From Bacteroidota bacterium (lineage in GTDB: Bacteria; Bacteroidota; Bacteroidia; Palsa-965), in assembly GCA_021299855.1 (NCBI GenBank), contig JAJTEY010000016.1:40149-83958 (forward strand): DNA of 43,810 nucleotides, given 5' to 3'. Shown one piece after another: positions 22,699 through 43,810 of the stretch. How positions within the stretch are numbered: the stretch's first letter is position 1; each line of letters opens with the position of its first letter. The position numbers and the translations under genes were made by a program. A model generated the notes under the pieces. The model did not search any database, was not told where the DNA came from, and saw nothing but the letters and a program-made list of their open reading frames with translations.

Positions 22699-23970
22699 TT
22701 AAATAATCATGCCGGCTCCAACAGTTTCGTTGGTCGCTTCATCGATTAGAATGATAGATCCGGTAATTCGATTCTTTTTATAGGAATCAATAAATAAAGG
22801 AACCGTTGTACGCAACCGAATACGTCCAATGTCATTCATTTGAATATTTTTACCTTCTTCGTTACGATGAAGTGTGTTGATGTCCATCTTGTAGACAACC
22901 TCCTTAATCACACATCTCGCATCACGTGTTGTGTGACGAATCGCATATTTTCCATTAAGTTGTAACGGACGCGAATTGAACCAGCACACCATCAAGTCAA
23001 TGTCTTGAGTAGATTCCGGTTGATTATTGTCCTTCACAATCATATCACCGCGTGAAATATCAATTTCGTCGTTTAACGTTAATGTAACACTCATTGGAGC
23101 AAACGCATCATCTATCGTCCCTTCAAATACGTCAACAGATTTTACGGTTGAGTTAAATCCGGAAGGCAGCACGGTTACCTTATCTCCTGCGCGGAAAATG
23201 CCACCAGCAACACGTCCTGCAAATCCTCTGTAATCGTGATGTTCAGTACTCATCGGACGAATTACATACTGAACCGGAAAGCGTGCATCAATATGATTAT
23301 GATCGGATGAAATGTGTACGTTTTCAAGAACGTGTAATAATGTTGGACCGTTGTACCAATTCATGTTCGTGGAACGATCAACAACATTATCTCCCAGTAA
23401 GGCGGAAATTGGAACAAACTGAATATCGATGGCATCAAGCTTACTGGCGAATGCTTCATACTCAGATTTGATAGTATTGAACACCTCTTCGCGATATTCG
23501 ACAAGATCCATTTTGTTAATACAAACAACGATATGAGGAATGCGCAGCAGTGATGCAATGAAGGTATGACGCATGGTTTGCTCGATGATTCCTTTGCGCG
23601 CATCAATTAAAATAATCGCGAGGTTTGCAGTAGAAGCACCGGTAACCATGTTGCGGGTATATTGAATATGTCCCGGCGTATCTGCGATAATAAATTTTCG
23701 TTTTGGTGTTGCGAAGTACCGGTATGCAACATCAATCGTAATACCTTGTTCGCGTTCGGCACGCAACCCATCAGTAAGTAGCGCAAGATTTACATATTCT
23801 TCACCGCGTTTTTCGCTAGTTGCTTTTACAGCTTCGTACTGATCTTCAAAAATTGATTTGGAGTCATACAATAATCTTCCAATCAACGTAGATTTACCGT
23901 CATCAACACTTCCTGCTGTTGTGAAGCGAAGTAAATCCATGTTCAGGTAATTGTTTTGTTCTGGATTCAT
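22699..23970 (-). CDS. cysN: Sulfate adenylyltransferase subunit 1 (GTPase)
   Basis: 423 aa. An EF-Tu-like GTPase that drives formation of adenosine 5'-phosphosulfate by CysD. G motifs: GSVDDGKSTLIGRLL (G1), DTPGHIQYTRNM (G3) and NKMDLV (G4), followed by the two beta-barrel domains. No APS kinase domain is fused; cysC is separate. The gene is third in the order cysC-cysD-cysN but is separated from cysD by a 498-base cassette carrying a GxxExxY gene, so it depends on transcription through that insert or on a promoter inside it. Confidence 0.97.
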   Translation of the reverse strand: MNPEQNNYLNMDLLRFTTAGSVDDGKSTLIGRLLYDSKSIFEDQYEAVKATSEKRGEEYVNLALLTDGLRAEREQGITIDVAYRYFATPKRKFIIADTPGHIQYTRNMVTGASTANLAIILIDARKGIIEQTMRHTFIASLLRIPHIVVCINKMDLVEYREEVFNTIKSEYEAFASKLDAIDIQFVPISALLGDNVVDRSTNMNWYNGPTLLHVLENVHISSDHNHIDARFPVQYVIRPMSTEHHDYRGFAGRVAGGIFRAGDKVTVLPSGFNSTVKSVDVFEGTIDDAFAPMSVTLTLNDEIDISRGDMIVKDNNQPESTQDIDLMVCWFNSRPLQLNGKYAIRHTTRDARCVIKEVVYKMDINTLHRNEEGKNIQMNDIGRIRLRTTVPLFIDSYKKNRITGSIILIDEATNETVGAGMII

Positions 23971-24043: not shown

Positions 24044-24454
24044 TCAGAGAACTAATCTGCGTATACCATTTTTAATAAGCGGGACATTGAAATTGATCAG
24101 GTAACCAAGACGATGTCCTGTAAGTTTTAACTGACTAAGTACCTGTGCTTCCCAAACCGGATTAACATTCTCAAGCGCCTTAACTTCACAGATGACCTTA
24201 TTTTCGATTAATAAATCAAGACGAAGACCATCTTCAAATTGTATTCCGTCGTAGACAACAGGAACTTCAACTTGTCTAGAAACAGTAAAACCTCTTTTTT
24301 GTAATTCATGAGCAAGAGATATCTCATATACTTTTTCTAAGAGACCGGGCCCAAAGTATTTGTGAACTGTAAATGCTGCGTCAATCAAGGATTTGCCAAT
24401 TCGCTCTTCTTCGTCAGATATGGCAGCGTATATTGTGTCGTTTTTTGTTCTCAT
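24044..24454 (-). CDS. GxxExxY family protein
   Basis: 136 aa, the family's normal size. It carries the name-giving motif GLLEKVY and the C-terminal stretch ICEVKALENVNPVWEAQ, with a D/E-x-K pattern that suggests a PD-(D/E)xK nuclease-like fold; no activity is established. Members are often scattered in several copies in Bacteroidota genomes. This one lies on the operon strand between cysD and cysN, flanked by inverted repeats, and has no role in sulfate activation that I can infer. A 3' boundary directly at the left repeat supports capture as a unit. Confidence 0.92.
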   Translation of the reverse strand: MRTKNDTIYAAISDEEERIGKSLIDAAFTVHKYFGPGLLEKVYEISLAHELQKRGFTVSRQVEVPVVYDGIQFEDGLRLDLLIENKVICEVKALENVNPVWEAQVLSQLKLTGHRLGYLINFNVPLIKNGIRRLVL

Positions 24455-24509: not shown

Positions 24510-25415
24510 CTAAAAATATCCTTGCTTCTTTCGATCTTCCATAGCAGCTTCGCTGCGCTTATCATCCGCGCGTGTTCCCCGTTCTGTTGTGCGGGATGCG
24601 GCAACTTCCTGCACTACTTCTTCCAACGTAGCAGCTTTAGACTCTACAGCGCCGGTGCATGTGATATCACCAATAGTACGGAAACGAATTACACGCTCTT
24701 CAACAACTTCTGTCGGTCTTTTCATCATGAAATCGAAATCCGCCAACCATTGTCCGTCGCGTTGGAATACTTTTCTTTTGTGTGAAAAATAAAGTGAAGG
24801 CAGTGGAATGTTCTCTGCTAGAATGTATTGCCAAACATCCATTTCAGTCCAGTTCGAAATTGGGAATACACGAAAATGTTCGCCCATGTTTTTCTTACCG
24901 TTGAATATGTTCCATAATTCTGGACGCTGATTTTTCGGATCCCACTGGCCGAACTCGTCTCTGTGCGAGAAGAAGCGTTCTTTTGCGCGTGCCTTTTCTT
25001 CATCCCTTCGAGCTCCTCCAATTGCACAATCCAATTTCAATTCTTCTATGGTGTCAAGAAGAGTTACCGTTTGAAGAGCATTGCGGCTGGCGTTGTAACC
25101 TTTCTCCTCCACCGCACGACCTTTGTCGATAGAATCCTGCACATATCTGACGATAACTTTAGCGCCAATTTTTTCTGCCCAAGCATCACGGTATTCCAAT
25201 GTTTCAGGGAAGTTGTGGCCGGTGTCGATATGTAATAACGGAAATGGAATTTTTGCGGGAGAAAACGCTTTTCGTGCCAAATGACTTACAACGATTGAGT
25301 CTTTGCCACCTGAAAATAATAAAGCAGGGCGTTCAAATTGTGCAGCAACTTCACGCAATACGTAAATAGATTCGGCCTCTAATTCTTTAAGATGAGATAA
25401 CGCGTAGCTTTTCAT
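24510..25415 (-). CDS. cysD: Sulfate adenylyltransferase subunit 2
   Basis: 301 aa, normal length. Catalytic subunit that makes APS from ATP and sulfate together with the GTPase CysN. Motifs: the PP-loop FSGGKDSIVVSHLARKAF, HIDTGHNFPETLEYRD, GGARRDEEKARAKER and the C-terminal RFRTIGDITCTGAV. Its ATG overlaps the cysC stop by 4 bases (ATGA), so translation is coupled to cysC. Expression should be controlled by the attenuator before cysC. Confidence 0.97.
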   Translation of the reverse strand: MKSYALSHLKELEAESIYVLREVAAQFERPALLFSGGKDSIVVSHLARKAFSPAKIPFPLLHIDTGHNFPETLEYRDAWAEKIGAKVIVRYVQDSIDKGRAVEEKGYNASRNALQTVTLLDTIEELKLDCAIGGARRDEEKARAKERFFSHRDEFGQWDPKNQRPELWNIFNGKKNMGEHFRVFPISNWTEMDVWQYILAENIPLPSLYFSHKRKVFQRDGQWLADFDFMMKRPTEVVEERVIRFRTIGDITCTGAVESKAATLEEVVQEVAASRTTERGTRADDKRSEAAMEDRKKQGYF

Positions 25416-26014
25416 AATTTCTGATCAGTGATTCGTTCTTTGATAAAACTATACAGCAGTTCAACGCTATCGTTTATGGAGAGTGATTGTGTTTTTATCT
25501 CCAGATCAGGACGTGCAGGCTCTTCAAATGGCGCAGTAATTCCTGTAAAATCAGCAATTTCTCCCGCTCGTGCTTTGGCATACAGTCCTTTCACATCACG
25601 TTCTTCGCACACTTCCAGCGGAGTATTGATATACACTTCACGAAAATCATCGTGTCCGATTATTGTTGCTGCTGCTGAACGAATTTTTCGCGTAGGACTT
25701 ACAAAACAACAGATAACGATGATGCCTACATCAGCCATCAGTTTAGCAACTTCTGCAATTCTGCGAATGTTTTCTTCCCTATCAGTCTCCGAGAATCCGA
25801 GATTTTTGTTGATACCCGCGCGAATATTATCGCCGTCCAACACGTAGGCTAAATGACCGTCTCGGTGAAGTTTGTGTTGCAATCCAATTGCAATAGTAGA
25901 TTTTCCCGACCCCGAGAGACCGGTCATCCATACTACGGTTCCGCGCTGACCGAGCATTTTTTCTCGTTCTGTGCGTTGCACCAATTTATCGAATATCGGA
26001 TGTATATGATTCAT
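25412..26014 (-). CDS. cysC: Adenylylsulfate kinase
   Basis: 200 aa. Phosphorylates APS to PAPS, the donor for reductive assimilation or for sulfotransferases. Walker A GLSGSGKSTIA, DGDNIRAGINKNLGFSETDR and the FVSPTRKIR stretch are intact. First gene of cysC-cysD-(GxxExxY)-cysN. The start codon at 26014 is preceded almost directly by the U-tract of a terminator, inside a 5' leader that encodes a cysteine-rich peptide; there is no room for a normal SD site. No cysH or sulfite reductase gene is in the window, so the sequence does not show whether PAPS is used for cysteine or for sulfation. Confidence 0.97.
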   Translation of the reverse strand: MNHIHPIFDKLVQRTEREKMLGQRGTVVWMTGLSGSGKSTIAIGLQHKLHRDGHLAYVLDGDNIRAGINKNLGFSETDREENIRRIAEVAKLMADVGIIVICCFVSPTRKIRSAAATIIGHDDFREVYINTPLEVCEERDVKGLYAKARAGEIADFTGITAPFEEPARPDLEIKTQSLSINDSVELLYSFIKERITDQKL

Positions 26015-26023
26015 AGTTAAAAC

Positions 26024-26055
26024 AAAAAAGGTCTATCCAAATGCGGAAAGACCTT
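26024..26055 (-). terminator. Attenuator terminator in the cysC leader
   Basis: On the minus strand AAGGTCT (26055-26049) pairs with AGACCTT (26034-26028), and TCC (26047-26045) with GGA (26038-26036) inside it. A run of six Ts (26029-26024) overlaps its end. It lies between the leader ORF and the cysC ATG, 9 bases before the start codon, so it cannot be the end of an upstream gene on this strand. Confidence 0.85.
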
Positions 26056-26079
26056 GATACAAAATGTTATCGGCTTTCC
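26045..26079 (-). promoter_or_regulatory. Antiterminator stem of the cysC leader
   Basis: GGAAAGCC (26079-26072) can pair with GGTCTTTCC (26053-26045) with one bulged T, giving 8 pairs that use up most of the 5' arm of the terminator. A third option pairs CCTCC (26142-26138) with GGAGG (26082-26078), which would block the antiterminator. The three pairings are mutually exclusive, as in classical attenuators. Confidence 0.7.
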
Positions 26080-26081
26080 TC

Positions 26082-26129
26082 CTAAAGCAAAGTCATGCAA
26101 CAGCACATTGTGCATACAACAAATGACAT
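26082..26129 (-). CDS. Cysteine-rich leader peptide of the cysCDN operon
   Basis: A 15-codon ORF, ATG at 26129 and TAG at 26084-26082, reading MSFVVCTMCCCMTLL. Four Cys codons, three of them consecutive, plus two internal Met codons in 15 residues is far from chance composition. It starts about 30 bases after the predicted transcription start and ends 67 bases before the cysC ATG. A ribosome stalled at the Cys codons would leave the antiterminator arm (26079-26072) free; a ribosome at the stop codon would cover it. It is therefore likely a sensor of charged tRNA-Cys, with no need for the peptide itself to act. Confidence 0.75.
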   Translation of the reverse strand: MSFVVCTMCCCMTLL

Positions 26130-26164
26130 TACCAAATGGAGGTTTGAGTTTTTCATTGACGTGG

Positions 26165-26196
26165 CAAATATAAGAGAATATCGGACAATTTTACAA
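26165..26196 (-). promoter_or_regulatory. Promoter of the cysC leader
   Basis: On the minus strand TATATTTG (26172-26165) fits TAnnTTTG, and TTG (26196-26194) lies 21 bases upstream as a -33 element. Transcription would begin near 26158, about 29 bases before the leader-peptide ATG. Confidence 0.6.
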
Positions 26197-26229
26197 TTCT
26201 ATTGATACCTACAAACGCAACGGTTTACG

Positions 26230-42187: not shown

Positions 42188-42205
42188 CCCTGTTCTTTCA
42201 CATTG

Positions 42206-42300
42206 CTTATCAAGAAAGGCTGAGGGATAGCGCCCGTTGAAGCCTTGGCAACCCCTTAGGGAAGGTGCCAACTCGCACTCCACGTTTGGAGATAGATAAG
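42206..42300 (+). promoter_or_regulatory. SAM-I (S-box) riboswitch controlling metH
   Basis: The P1 stem CTTATC (42206-42211) / GATAAG (42295-42300) closes a four-way junction containing the S-box core: AGGCTGAGGGATAGCGCCC, GAAGCCTTGGCAACC and GGAAGGTGCCAACTC-like segments. Binding of S-adenosylmethionine should stabilise P1. AAGTCATGAG (42298-42307) can instead pair with CTCTTGACTT (42330-42339) as an antiterminator, and a terminator follows. This is a transcriptional OFF switch for methionine synthase. Confidence 0.95.
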
Positions 42301-42325
42301 TCATGAGTAATCGATTTGATTCACG

Positions 42326-42384: not shown

Positions 42385-43810
42385 ATGAACGACATCAAAT
42401 CGCAACTCGAAAAACGAGTACTCATCATCGATGGTGCAATGGGCACCATGATTCAACGTTATAATTTAACTGAAGCTGACTATCGTGGCGAACGATTCAA
42501 AGATTGGCCGTACGATCTGAAAGGGAACAACGATTTGCTTGTGCTCACTCAGCCTGCTATTATCGAAGAGATTCACCGACAGTATCTGGATGCCGGTGCT
42601 GATATCATTGAAACAAATACGTTTAATGCACAACGCATTTCAATGGCGGACTATCACATGGAAAGTCTGTCCTATGAAATGAATGTTGCTGCGTCACAAA
42701 TTGCACGACGCGCAGCAGATGCGTTTAATGCGAAAACTCCACAACAACCGCGATATGTTGCCGGAGCAATAGGACCTACGAACAGGACAGCATCGTTGTC
42801 GCCGGATGTAAACGATCCGGGATTTCGTGCGATTTCGTTTGATGATTTAGTAAGTGCATATCTGGAACAGGCACGCGGGTTGGTAGAAGGCGGAGTGGAT
42901 CTGTTTCTGATTGAAACGATTTTTGATACGCTTAATGCCAAAGCTGCTTTGTTTGCAGTGCAGACGCTATGTGAAGAATTAGGAAGAAAAATTCCCGTAA
43001 TGGTTTCCGGTACCATTACCGATGCCAGTGGAAGAACGTTGTCGGGTCAAACCACGGAAGCATTTTTAAATTCCGTTGCACATGTCGATTTGCTGAGTGT
43101 CGGCTTGAACTGTGCGTTGGGTGCTCCGCAGATGCGTCCGTTTTTGGAAGAGTTAGCGAATAAGGCTCCGTTTTATGTGAGTTGTTATCCGAATGCGGGA
43201 TTGCCGAATCAGTTTGGTGAATACGATGAATCTCCTGAACAGATGGGCGAACATATTCGCGATTTCGTGAAGAGTAATTTCGTGAATATTATTGGAGGAT
43301 GTTGCGGAACCACGCCGGATCATATTCGCCGCATTGCTGAAGTAGCCCGTGGTGAACGTCCTCGCAGTGTGCCCTATTTGGAGCCTTACATGAAGTTGTC
43401 GGGTCTTGAACCTGTTACATTACGTCCTGAAAGTAATTTCATGAACGTAGGTGAACGTACCAATGTGACAGGATCGAAAAAATTCGCACGATTAATTAAA
43501 GAAGAACAATACGACGAAGCATTAGCGATTGCCCGCGATCAGGTGGAAGGCGGTGCACAGGTAATTGACATCAACATGGATGAAGGCATGTTGGATGCAG
43601 TTGCTGCAATGACACGATTTTTAAATTTGATTGCTGCAGAACCCGATATTGCGCGTGTTCCCATCATGCTCGACTCGTCCAAGTTTCATGTTATTGAAGC
43701 AGGATTGAAGTGTGTGCAAGGCAAGGCCGTCGTGAATTCCATCTCATTGAAAGAAGGTGAAGCTGAATTTATTCGTCAGGCGAAATTAATCAAGAAGTAC
43801 GGTGCTGCTG
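42385..43810 (+). CDS. metH: Methionine synthase, cobalamin-dependent, N-terminal part (partial)
   Basis: The frame is open from ATG 42385 to the window end (475 codons). It transfers a methyl group from methyltetrahydrofolate via cobalamin to homocysteine. Visible are the homocysteine domain ([25 protein letters not shown] and the zinc ligands Cys306-Cys307 in [11 protein letters not shown]) and the start of the pterin domain ([31 protein letters not shown]). The ATG at 42368 opens only a 6-codon frame and is rejected. Expression is controlled by the SAM-I riboswitch upstream. In some Bacteroidota metH is split into two genes; the window ends too early to tell. Confidence 0.97.

Follow-up and report, generated by a model that had tools for sequence, protein, structure and literature searches.

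A conserved cysteine-codon leader with a covarying terminator, a candidate transcription attenuator, precedes sulfur assimilation genes in Bacteroidota

Within the window, by which the whole 43,810-nt stretch of DNA analysed here is meant, the sulfate assimilation genes cysC, cysD and cysN follow each other on the minus strand (Table 1), with a small ORF between cysD and cysN (24044-24454, likewise on the minus strand) that by eye resembles the GxxExxY family; in the family genome G006, a different small ORF occupies the same gap. Upstream of cysC are found a promoter, a short leader ORF with a run of cysteine codons and a hairpin with a T-run that reaches almost to the ATG of cysC at 26014. 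No Rfam family, be it SAM riboswitch, T-box or any other, matches positions 26000-26210 up to E = 1, and the sole gathering-level Rfam match in the window lies 16 kb from the cys leader. This match is a SAM riboswitch (42204-42302, plus strand, 76 bits) located directly before a metH-like methionine synthase gene that begins at 42385 and leaves the window. With both elements in the window, one and the same genome pairs a SAM riboswitch at a met gene with a putative Cys-leader attenuator at sulfate assimilation genes.

Table 1. Genes and putative regulatory features of the cys locus in the window
Feature	Coordinates	Strand	Basis or remark
cysN, sulfate adenylyltransferase large subunit	22699..23970	-	TIGR02034, NF003478 above cut-off
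cysD, sulfate adenylyltransferase subunit	24510..25415	-	TIGR02039, NF003587 above cut-off
cysC, adenylyl-sulfate kinase	25412..26014	-	NCBIfam NF003013, TIGR00455 above cut-off
Intrinsic terminator, predicted (hairpin 26055-26028, T-run to 26019)	26019..26055	-	-13.4 kcal/mol
Antiterminator (2:3) downstream arm, also terminator 5' arm, GGTCTTTCC	26045..26053	-	pairing and covariation
Antiterminator (2:3) upstream arm, GGAAAGCC	26072..26079	-	pairs 8/8 with 26053-26045 in folding with the ribosome at the Cys codons
Protector (1:2) downstream arm, GGAGG	26078..26082	-	includes the final base of the stop codon
Protector (1:2) upstream arm, CCTCC	26138..26142	-	complementary to 26082-26078
Control codons, Cys15 (26114-26112) and Cys18-20 (26105-26097), Met17 between	26097..26114	-	sequence and translation
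Leader peptide ORF, 24 codons, MKNSNLHLVMSFVVCTMCCCMTLL and stop	26082..26156	-	translation; homologous leaders before relatives' cysC
Bacteroidota-type promoter, TTG (26196-26194), 21-bp spacer, TATATTTG (26172-26165)	26165..26196	-	read from sequence

An earlier note on this DNA had described a promoter-like pair followed by a 15-codon leader ORF with four Cys codons. While a promoter is indeed present, its TTG element, 21-bp spacer and TATATTTG box fit the Bacteroidota type better than a consensus sigma-70 promoter, a reading which was set aside. Promoters of the TAnnTTTG type are typical of Bacteroidota, and most of the 51 leaders collected in this work have a box of this kind 4-25 nt upstream of their start. 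The four Cys codons of the note stand as well, while its start codon at 26129 turns out to be an internal Met of a 24-codon ORF that begins at the ATG at 26156. As the leaders of relatives begin alike, with a common N-terminal MKNxx(F/L)H (MNNNLHIS..., MKNNFHIY... and MKNNLLPV...), this longer ORF is considered the real leader, which places the upstream arm of the protector inside the ORF. Only 8 nt separate the promoter box from the ATG, so that the leader mRNA is predicted to be almost leaderless. The Cys run is kept in the leaders of the relatives, and over the 51 leaders its reading frame is conserved; TGT (98) and TGC (98) codons are used equally, which argues for conservation of the amino acid rather than of one RNA word.

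By itself, a Cys-rich ORF at this position is not beyond chance, as 205 of 2000 dinucleotide shuffles of the window's upstream region yield a comparable one, defined as a short ORF with at least three Cys among its last 14 codons (31/2000 and 69/2000 for the upstream regions of two relatives). With this test of the window region being non-significant, the case rests on conservation, covariation and gene context.

The three pairings proposed in the earlier note, namely the protector CCTCC:GGAGG, the antiterminator GGAAAGCC:GGTCTTTCC and the terminator with its T-run, are all present and complementary, with an overlap between protector and antiterminator of 2 nt only in the window leader. The terminator hairpin, followed by six T residues, folds with z -3.8 versus shuffles (positions 26070-26015 folded); a simple consensus terminator scan, the rules of which are missed by the hairpin 26055-26028, does not report it. 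When 8 and 17 leaders are aligned, pairs of the terminator are seen to differ in both partners, in the larger set at 5 of 9 pairs; the covariation score is reached by no shuffle, and slid versions of the hairpin pair less.

Support for all three pairings comes from a swap test over 51 leaders, in which the pre-Cys segment, the post-Cys segment and both terminator arms were exchanged among leaders. Cognate segments pair more strongly than swapped ones for the protector 1:2 (mean -9.94 vs -7.73 kcal/mol, z -6.6), the antiterminator 2:3 (-12.31 vs -10.04, z -6.4) and the terminator 3:4 (-18.57 vs -11.89, z -16.6), in each case with 0/20000 permutations, whereby the z-scores are inflated by sequence relatedness and are not to be read as probabilities. 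Examples are GCAATTCC with GGAATTGC for the protector, taken from the sulfite-reductase leader of G003, and GGAAAAGCC with GGCTTTTCC as well as GGAAGAG with CTCTTCC for the antiterminator. In the cysC group alone, no 2:3 covariation beyond the fixed motif is detected (z +0.7); as the antiterminator motif is near-invariant within this group, the swap test says nothing there, and it is outside the cysC group that the 2:3 pairing covaries.

An alignment of the upstream regions of cysC/cysD from relatives had been proposed in the earlier note as a check, and in it Cys codons are kept and stems covary. Among the genomes of the window's family that carry cysC, 7 of 10 possess a Cys leader with a terminator before the gene, the Cys ORFs being located 67-140 nt before cysC and followed by a hairpin with a T-run; three family cysC genes (L006, L007, L010) have no recognisable leader. 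At more distant cysC loci, a Cys ORF of comparable kind is found in 3 of 79. MAG-78, a genome of another collection, equally carries a Cys leader with a terminator before cysC (L011), which is also recovered by the covariance model R2. This model was built from 17 leaders with no downstream sequence included, and its application to 395 genomes of the window's class identified 54 genomes with a match at E <= 1e-4. Outside the family, 27 matches at E <= about 1e-6 are distributed over genes mainly of sulfur metabolism: 10 are located before sulfite reductase, 8 before cysC, 2 before an aldo/keto-reductase gene with sulfite reductase behind it, 3 before the alpha subunit of 2-oxoacid:ferredoxin oxidoreductase, 1 before homoserine dehydrogenase and 1 before a gene which by eye is TauE/SafE-type permease-like, with 2 lacking an assigned gene. 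As the model was trained on Cys leaders, Cys codons in its matches are partly circular, which does not hold for the gene context. When sulfite-reductase genes were gathered from 119 genomes by protein search, that is without the RNA model, 14 of 27 loci outside the family, from 10 families, showed a Cys leader and terminator directly upstream. Genes for O-acetylhomoserine (OAH) sulfhydrylase and for homoserine dehydrogenase also occur downstream of Cys leaders. On the basis of these comparisons, the element recurs before sulfur genes across many Bacteroidota families.

Several model matches had to be set aside as plain terminators with no Cys leader and with unrelated genes downstream (L219, L227, L228, L230, L235, L236 and L239). 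Among the named genomes that were reached through individual loci, Cys leaders are found in MAG-78 only, the others showing leaders for other amino acids or plain terminators. A further MAG-78 match (L244), near a contig end, has seven Cys codons in a row (MKNNIHITTCCCCCCCLIRSMRKG) and is immediately followed by a second match of the model.

All sequence-level features of an attenuator of the trp/his type are found at the cysC leader, that is a leader ORF with codons for the end product, a terminator, an antiterminator and a protector; moreover, the GGAR arm begins 1-9 nt after the stop codon in 32 of the 36 leaders in which the arm was found. We therefore consider the element very probably a classical ribosome-mediated transcription attenuator that senses the supply of cysteinyl-tRNA, as the earlier note had suggested; conservation, covariation and folding support this part of its reading, while the Met codons, the tandem units and the wider regulon described below had been missed. 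The 24-codon leader would be transcribed from a nearly leaderless start with the ribosome trailing the polymerase. With ample Cys-tRNA, the ribosome would reach the stop codon and cover the GGAAAG behind it, leaving the terminator free to form and to end transcription ahead of cysC; the geometry and the pairings are seen in the sequence, the termination event is predicted from them. With scarce Cys-tRNA, the ribosome would stall in the Cys run with its 3' edge near 26086-26091 and the protector opened, upon which GGAAAGCC and GGTCTTTCC could pair before the terminator 3' arm is made and allow read-through into cysC-cysD-cysN, as suggested by staged folding and covariation.

In staged folding with the ribosome at Cys18, Cys19 or Cys20 and the transcript extended to 26045-26032, the antiterminator forms with 8/8 pairs, while with the ribosome at the stop codon only the terminator is found; this is the order of structures expected for attenuation. 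Once the terminator 3' arm is complete, however, the terminator is preferred even with a stalled ribosome (-14.6 vs -10.8 kcal/mol). As equilibrium favours the terminator in the stalled state, the ON state would have to be kinetic, and kinetic antitermination is the case for trp. For the untranslated leader, a block of the antiterminator by the protector had been proposed. Staged folding without a ribosome does give the protector (5/5 pairs) together with the terminator, a coexistence that would correspond to an OFF state, yet the protector shares just those 2 nt with the antiterminator arm.

Beyond cysteine, the leaders are rich in methionine codons, and it is possible, while still somewhat short of probable, that they act as dual sulfur-amino-acid sensors which read Cys-tRNA and Met-tRNA, a refinement of the Cys attenuator that does not conflict with it. 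The 1096 non-start codons of the 51 leaders include 196 Cys and 143 Met codons, with 5 and 8 Met codons in the other frames, compared with 4 Met among 162 codons in eight His, Trp, Thr, Asn and Ile/Val leaders (Fisher p 1e-5). Met adjoins Cys in 49 of 51 leaders, a core MMCCMMC being frequent, and the presence of OAH sulfhydrylase and homoserine dehydrogenase downstream is in line with joint sensing. On the other hand, as Met has a single codon, selection for the residue and selection for the RNA sequence are indistinguishable; near the Cys run of the window leader there are only two Met codons, Met17 and Met21, and the same genome uses a SAM riboswitch before a met gene.

Sulfite reductase is often preceded by not one but two Cys leaders, each of which is followed by a separate terminator. 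Such tandem leaders are found in six family genomes (G003, G006, G007, G008, G009 and G011) and also at loci in the families f44, f19, f16, f10, f25 and f21. In G008, G009 and G011, a tRNA-Cys gene is located between the tandem leaders and sulfite reductase, in two of the three behind a peroxiredoxin gene. The 2-oxoacid:ferredoxin oxidoreductase (kor) genes of several families have Cys leaders with a conserved terminator; as the swap test does not support protector (z +0.9) and antiterminator (z -1.1) pairings in the kor leaders, kor is considered a probable member of the set only. The sulfite reductases find their best matches, below cut-off, in the NirA/ferredoxin-dependent kind, so that the supply of reduced ferredoxin may link them to 2-oxoacid:ferredoxin oxidoreductase. 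Taken further, and more speculatively than the reading of Met codons alone, a class-wide Bacteroidota set of attenuators might read Cys and Met codons jointly, often with two arranged serially so as to steepen the response; it might include, in some lineages, the tRNA-Cys gene, the product supply of which would feed back on its own sensor, and 2-oxoacid:ferredoxin oxidoreductase could feed electrons to sulfite reductase.

Two further Cys-rich ORFs were noticed in sulfite-reductase surroundings. In the window's genome, a short ORF ending in RMRCCCCKSSF (L156, G000:C21) lies between sulfite reductase and a cobA-like gene; it has no evident terminator, and the sulfite-reductase 5' end is beyond the contig edge. 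In G004, a Cys-rich ORF (...FCSTCCMRSRQ; L157, 1970-2062) is located just before the aldo/keto-reductase gene of a sulfite-reductase operon and is possibly a degenerate or translational version.

Alternatively, the Cys leader could act at the level of translation by exposing or hiding the cysC start region, with the hairpin being incidental. Leaderless or near-leaderless Cys-rich short ORFs with a mechanism described as translational are reported for mycobacteria in PMC13236596 and PMC9094748, both citing Canestrari 2020, and the terminator of the window does adjoin the cysC start codon. We judge this alternative improbable, as the hairpin with its T-run is conserved and covarying, and at several loci the hairpin lies at a considerable distance from the gene start, with a second leader, a tRNA-Cys or a peroxiredoxin gene intervening. 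While the mycobacterial translational attenuators are characterized by the absence of a terminator, here a covarying terminator is present which can be followed by tRNA-Cys or other genes. Even less probable is a Cys/Met-rich peptide with a function of its own, such as metal binding, combined with a plain terminator or constitutive brake: motifs such as MMCCMMC do recall soft-metal ligands, but the leaders, which carry the Cys run at their extreme C-terminal end, vary in length and in their N-terminal part, the antiterminator arm begins a few nt from the stop codon, the structures covary and sulfur assimilation genes lie downstream. A chance ORF before an ordinary terminator, which about a tenth of the window-region shuffles would allow, is contradicted by the recurrence of the leader at family cysC genes as opposed to distant ones and at about half of the sulfite-reductase loci outside the family, and can be dismissed.

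The ribosome-mediated attenuator thus preferred resembles the enterobacterial trp, his, thr and ilv attenuators in its run of end-product codons, its mutually exclusive 1:2, 2:3 and 3:4 pairings and the matching pathway genes downstream. It differs from them by its Cys (and Met) codons, its Bacteroidota promoter, its nearly leaderless ORF and its tandem copies before sulfite reductase. In actinobacteria, cys operons are preceded by short ORFs whose Cys runs lie close to the stop codon, and for which conserved terminator hairpins were not detected (PMC1262725), whereas here a terminator and an antiterminator are present and covary. Closer in architecture is uORFC-8-2 of Rhodobacterales, for which attenuation has been proposed, with tandem Cys codons and then an intrinsic terminator before cysS only; the available part of the source mentions no tandem copies (PMC8632094). 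In contrast to uORFC-8-2, cysC and a different gene set are located downstream here, in another phylum. Within Bacteroidota, 'strong clues' of leader-peptide attenuation have been put forward for amino-acid biosynthesis operons of Flavobacterium psychrophilum, in a passage that names no cysteine leader (PMC9723704). A serial arrangement is shared with Salmonella mgtCBR, where, according to the abstract, two short ORFs and attenuators precede an operon for a Mg2+ transporter and virulence (PMC3641672), while here both paired leaders are Cys-rich with sulfur genes downstream.

In a targeted literature search, which covered few subscription journals, no Bacteroidota Cys attenuator with terminator and antiterminator was found; an earlier prediction in the 2010 survey of Lopatovskaya et al. 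is possible. As judged by comparative sequence analysis, the element is real and conserved; ribosome-mediated attenuation is well known, and for a Bacteroidota Cys version of it the searched literature gave no precedent. It provides Bacteroidota, a major phylum, with candidate RNA-level control of sulfate assimilation by Cys or perhaps by Cys and Met. Both the tandem Cys attenuators and the placement of a tRNA-Cys gene inside the putatively controlled transcript are unusual arrangements with measurable response curves, and the proposed regulon predicts new links to sulfur metabolism, such as korA.

Leaders for other amino acids were also encountered in Bacteroidota. His-rich leaders with terminators before hisG (L116, MKTTSHTHHHVCTPIR; L224, MNNSLVINNHHHHHVIST...; L237, MFTTQKHHHRHHTT...) appear as histidine attenuators. 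In Jejuia sp. UBA6058, a Trp leader (MNKNLNKTWWWCFRN) with a terminator is found before a trpE-like gene (L241), and in Splendidivirga corallicola a Thr/Ile leader (MNNIISITRTTTGIIISAKRGMV) with a terminator precedes an aspartokinase gene (L234). Asn-rich leaders with terminators lie before an asnA-like gene in Salinimicrobium catena (L233, MNLNTNNNPFNNNLNN...) and before a gatA-like amidase gene in Jejuia sp. UBA6058 (L249, MKNNNNNNNFNNPTC), both genes being named by eye; these two are possibly asparagine attenuators, the latter on the route of tRNA-dependent amidation. Finally, an Ile/Val-rich leader (MKHSIIISENVQVIVISVASPTGMV) with a terminator is located upstream of an ilvE-like gene in G008 (L121).
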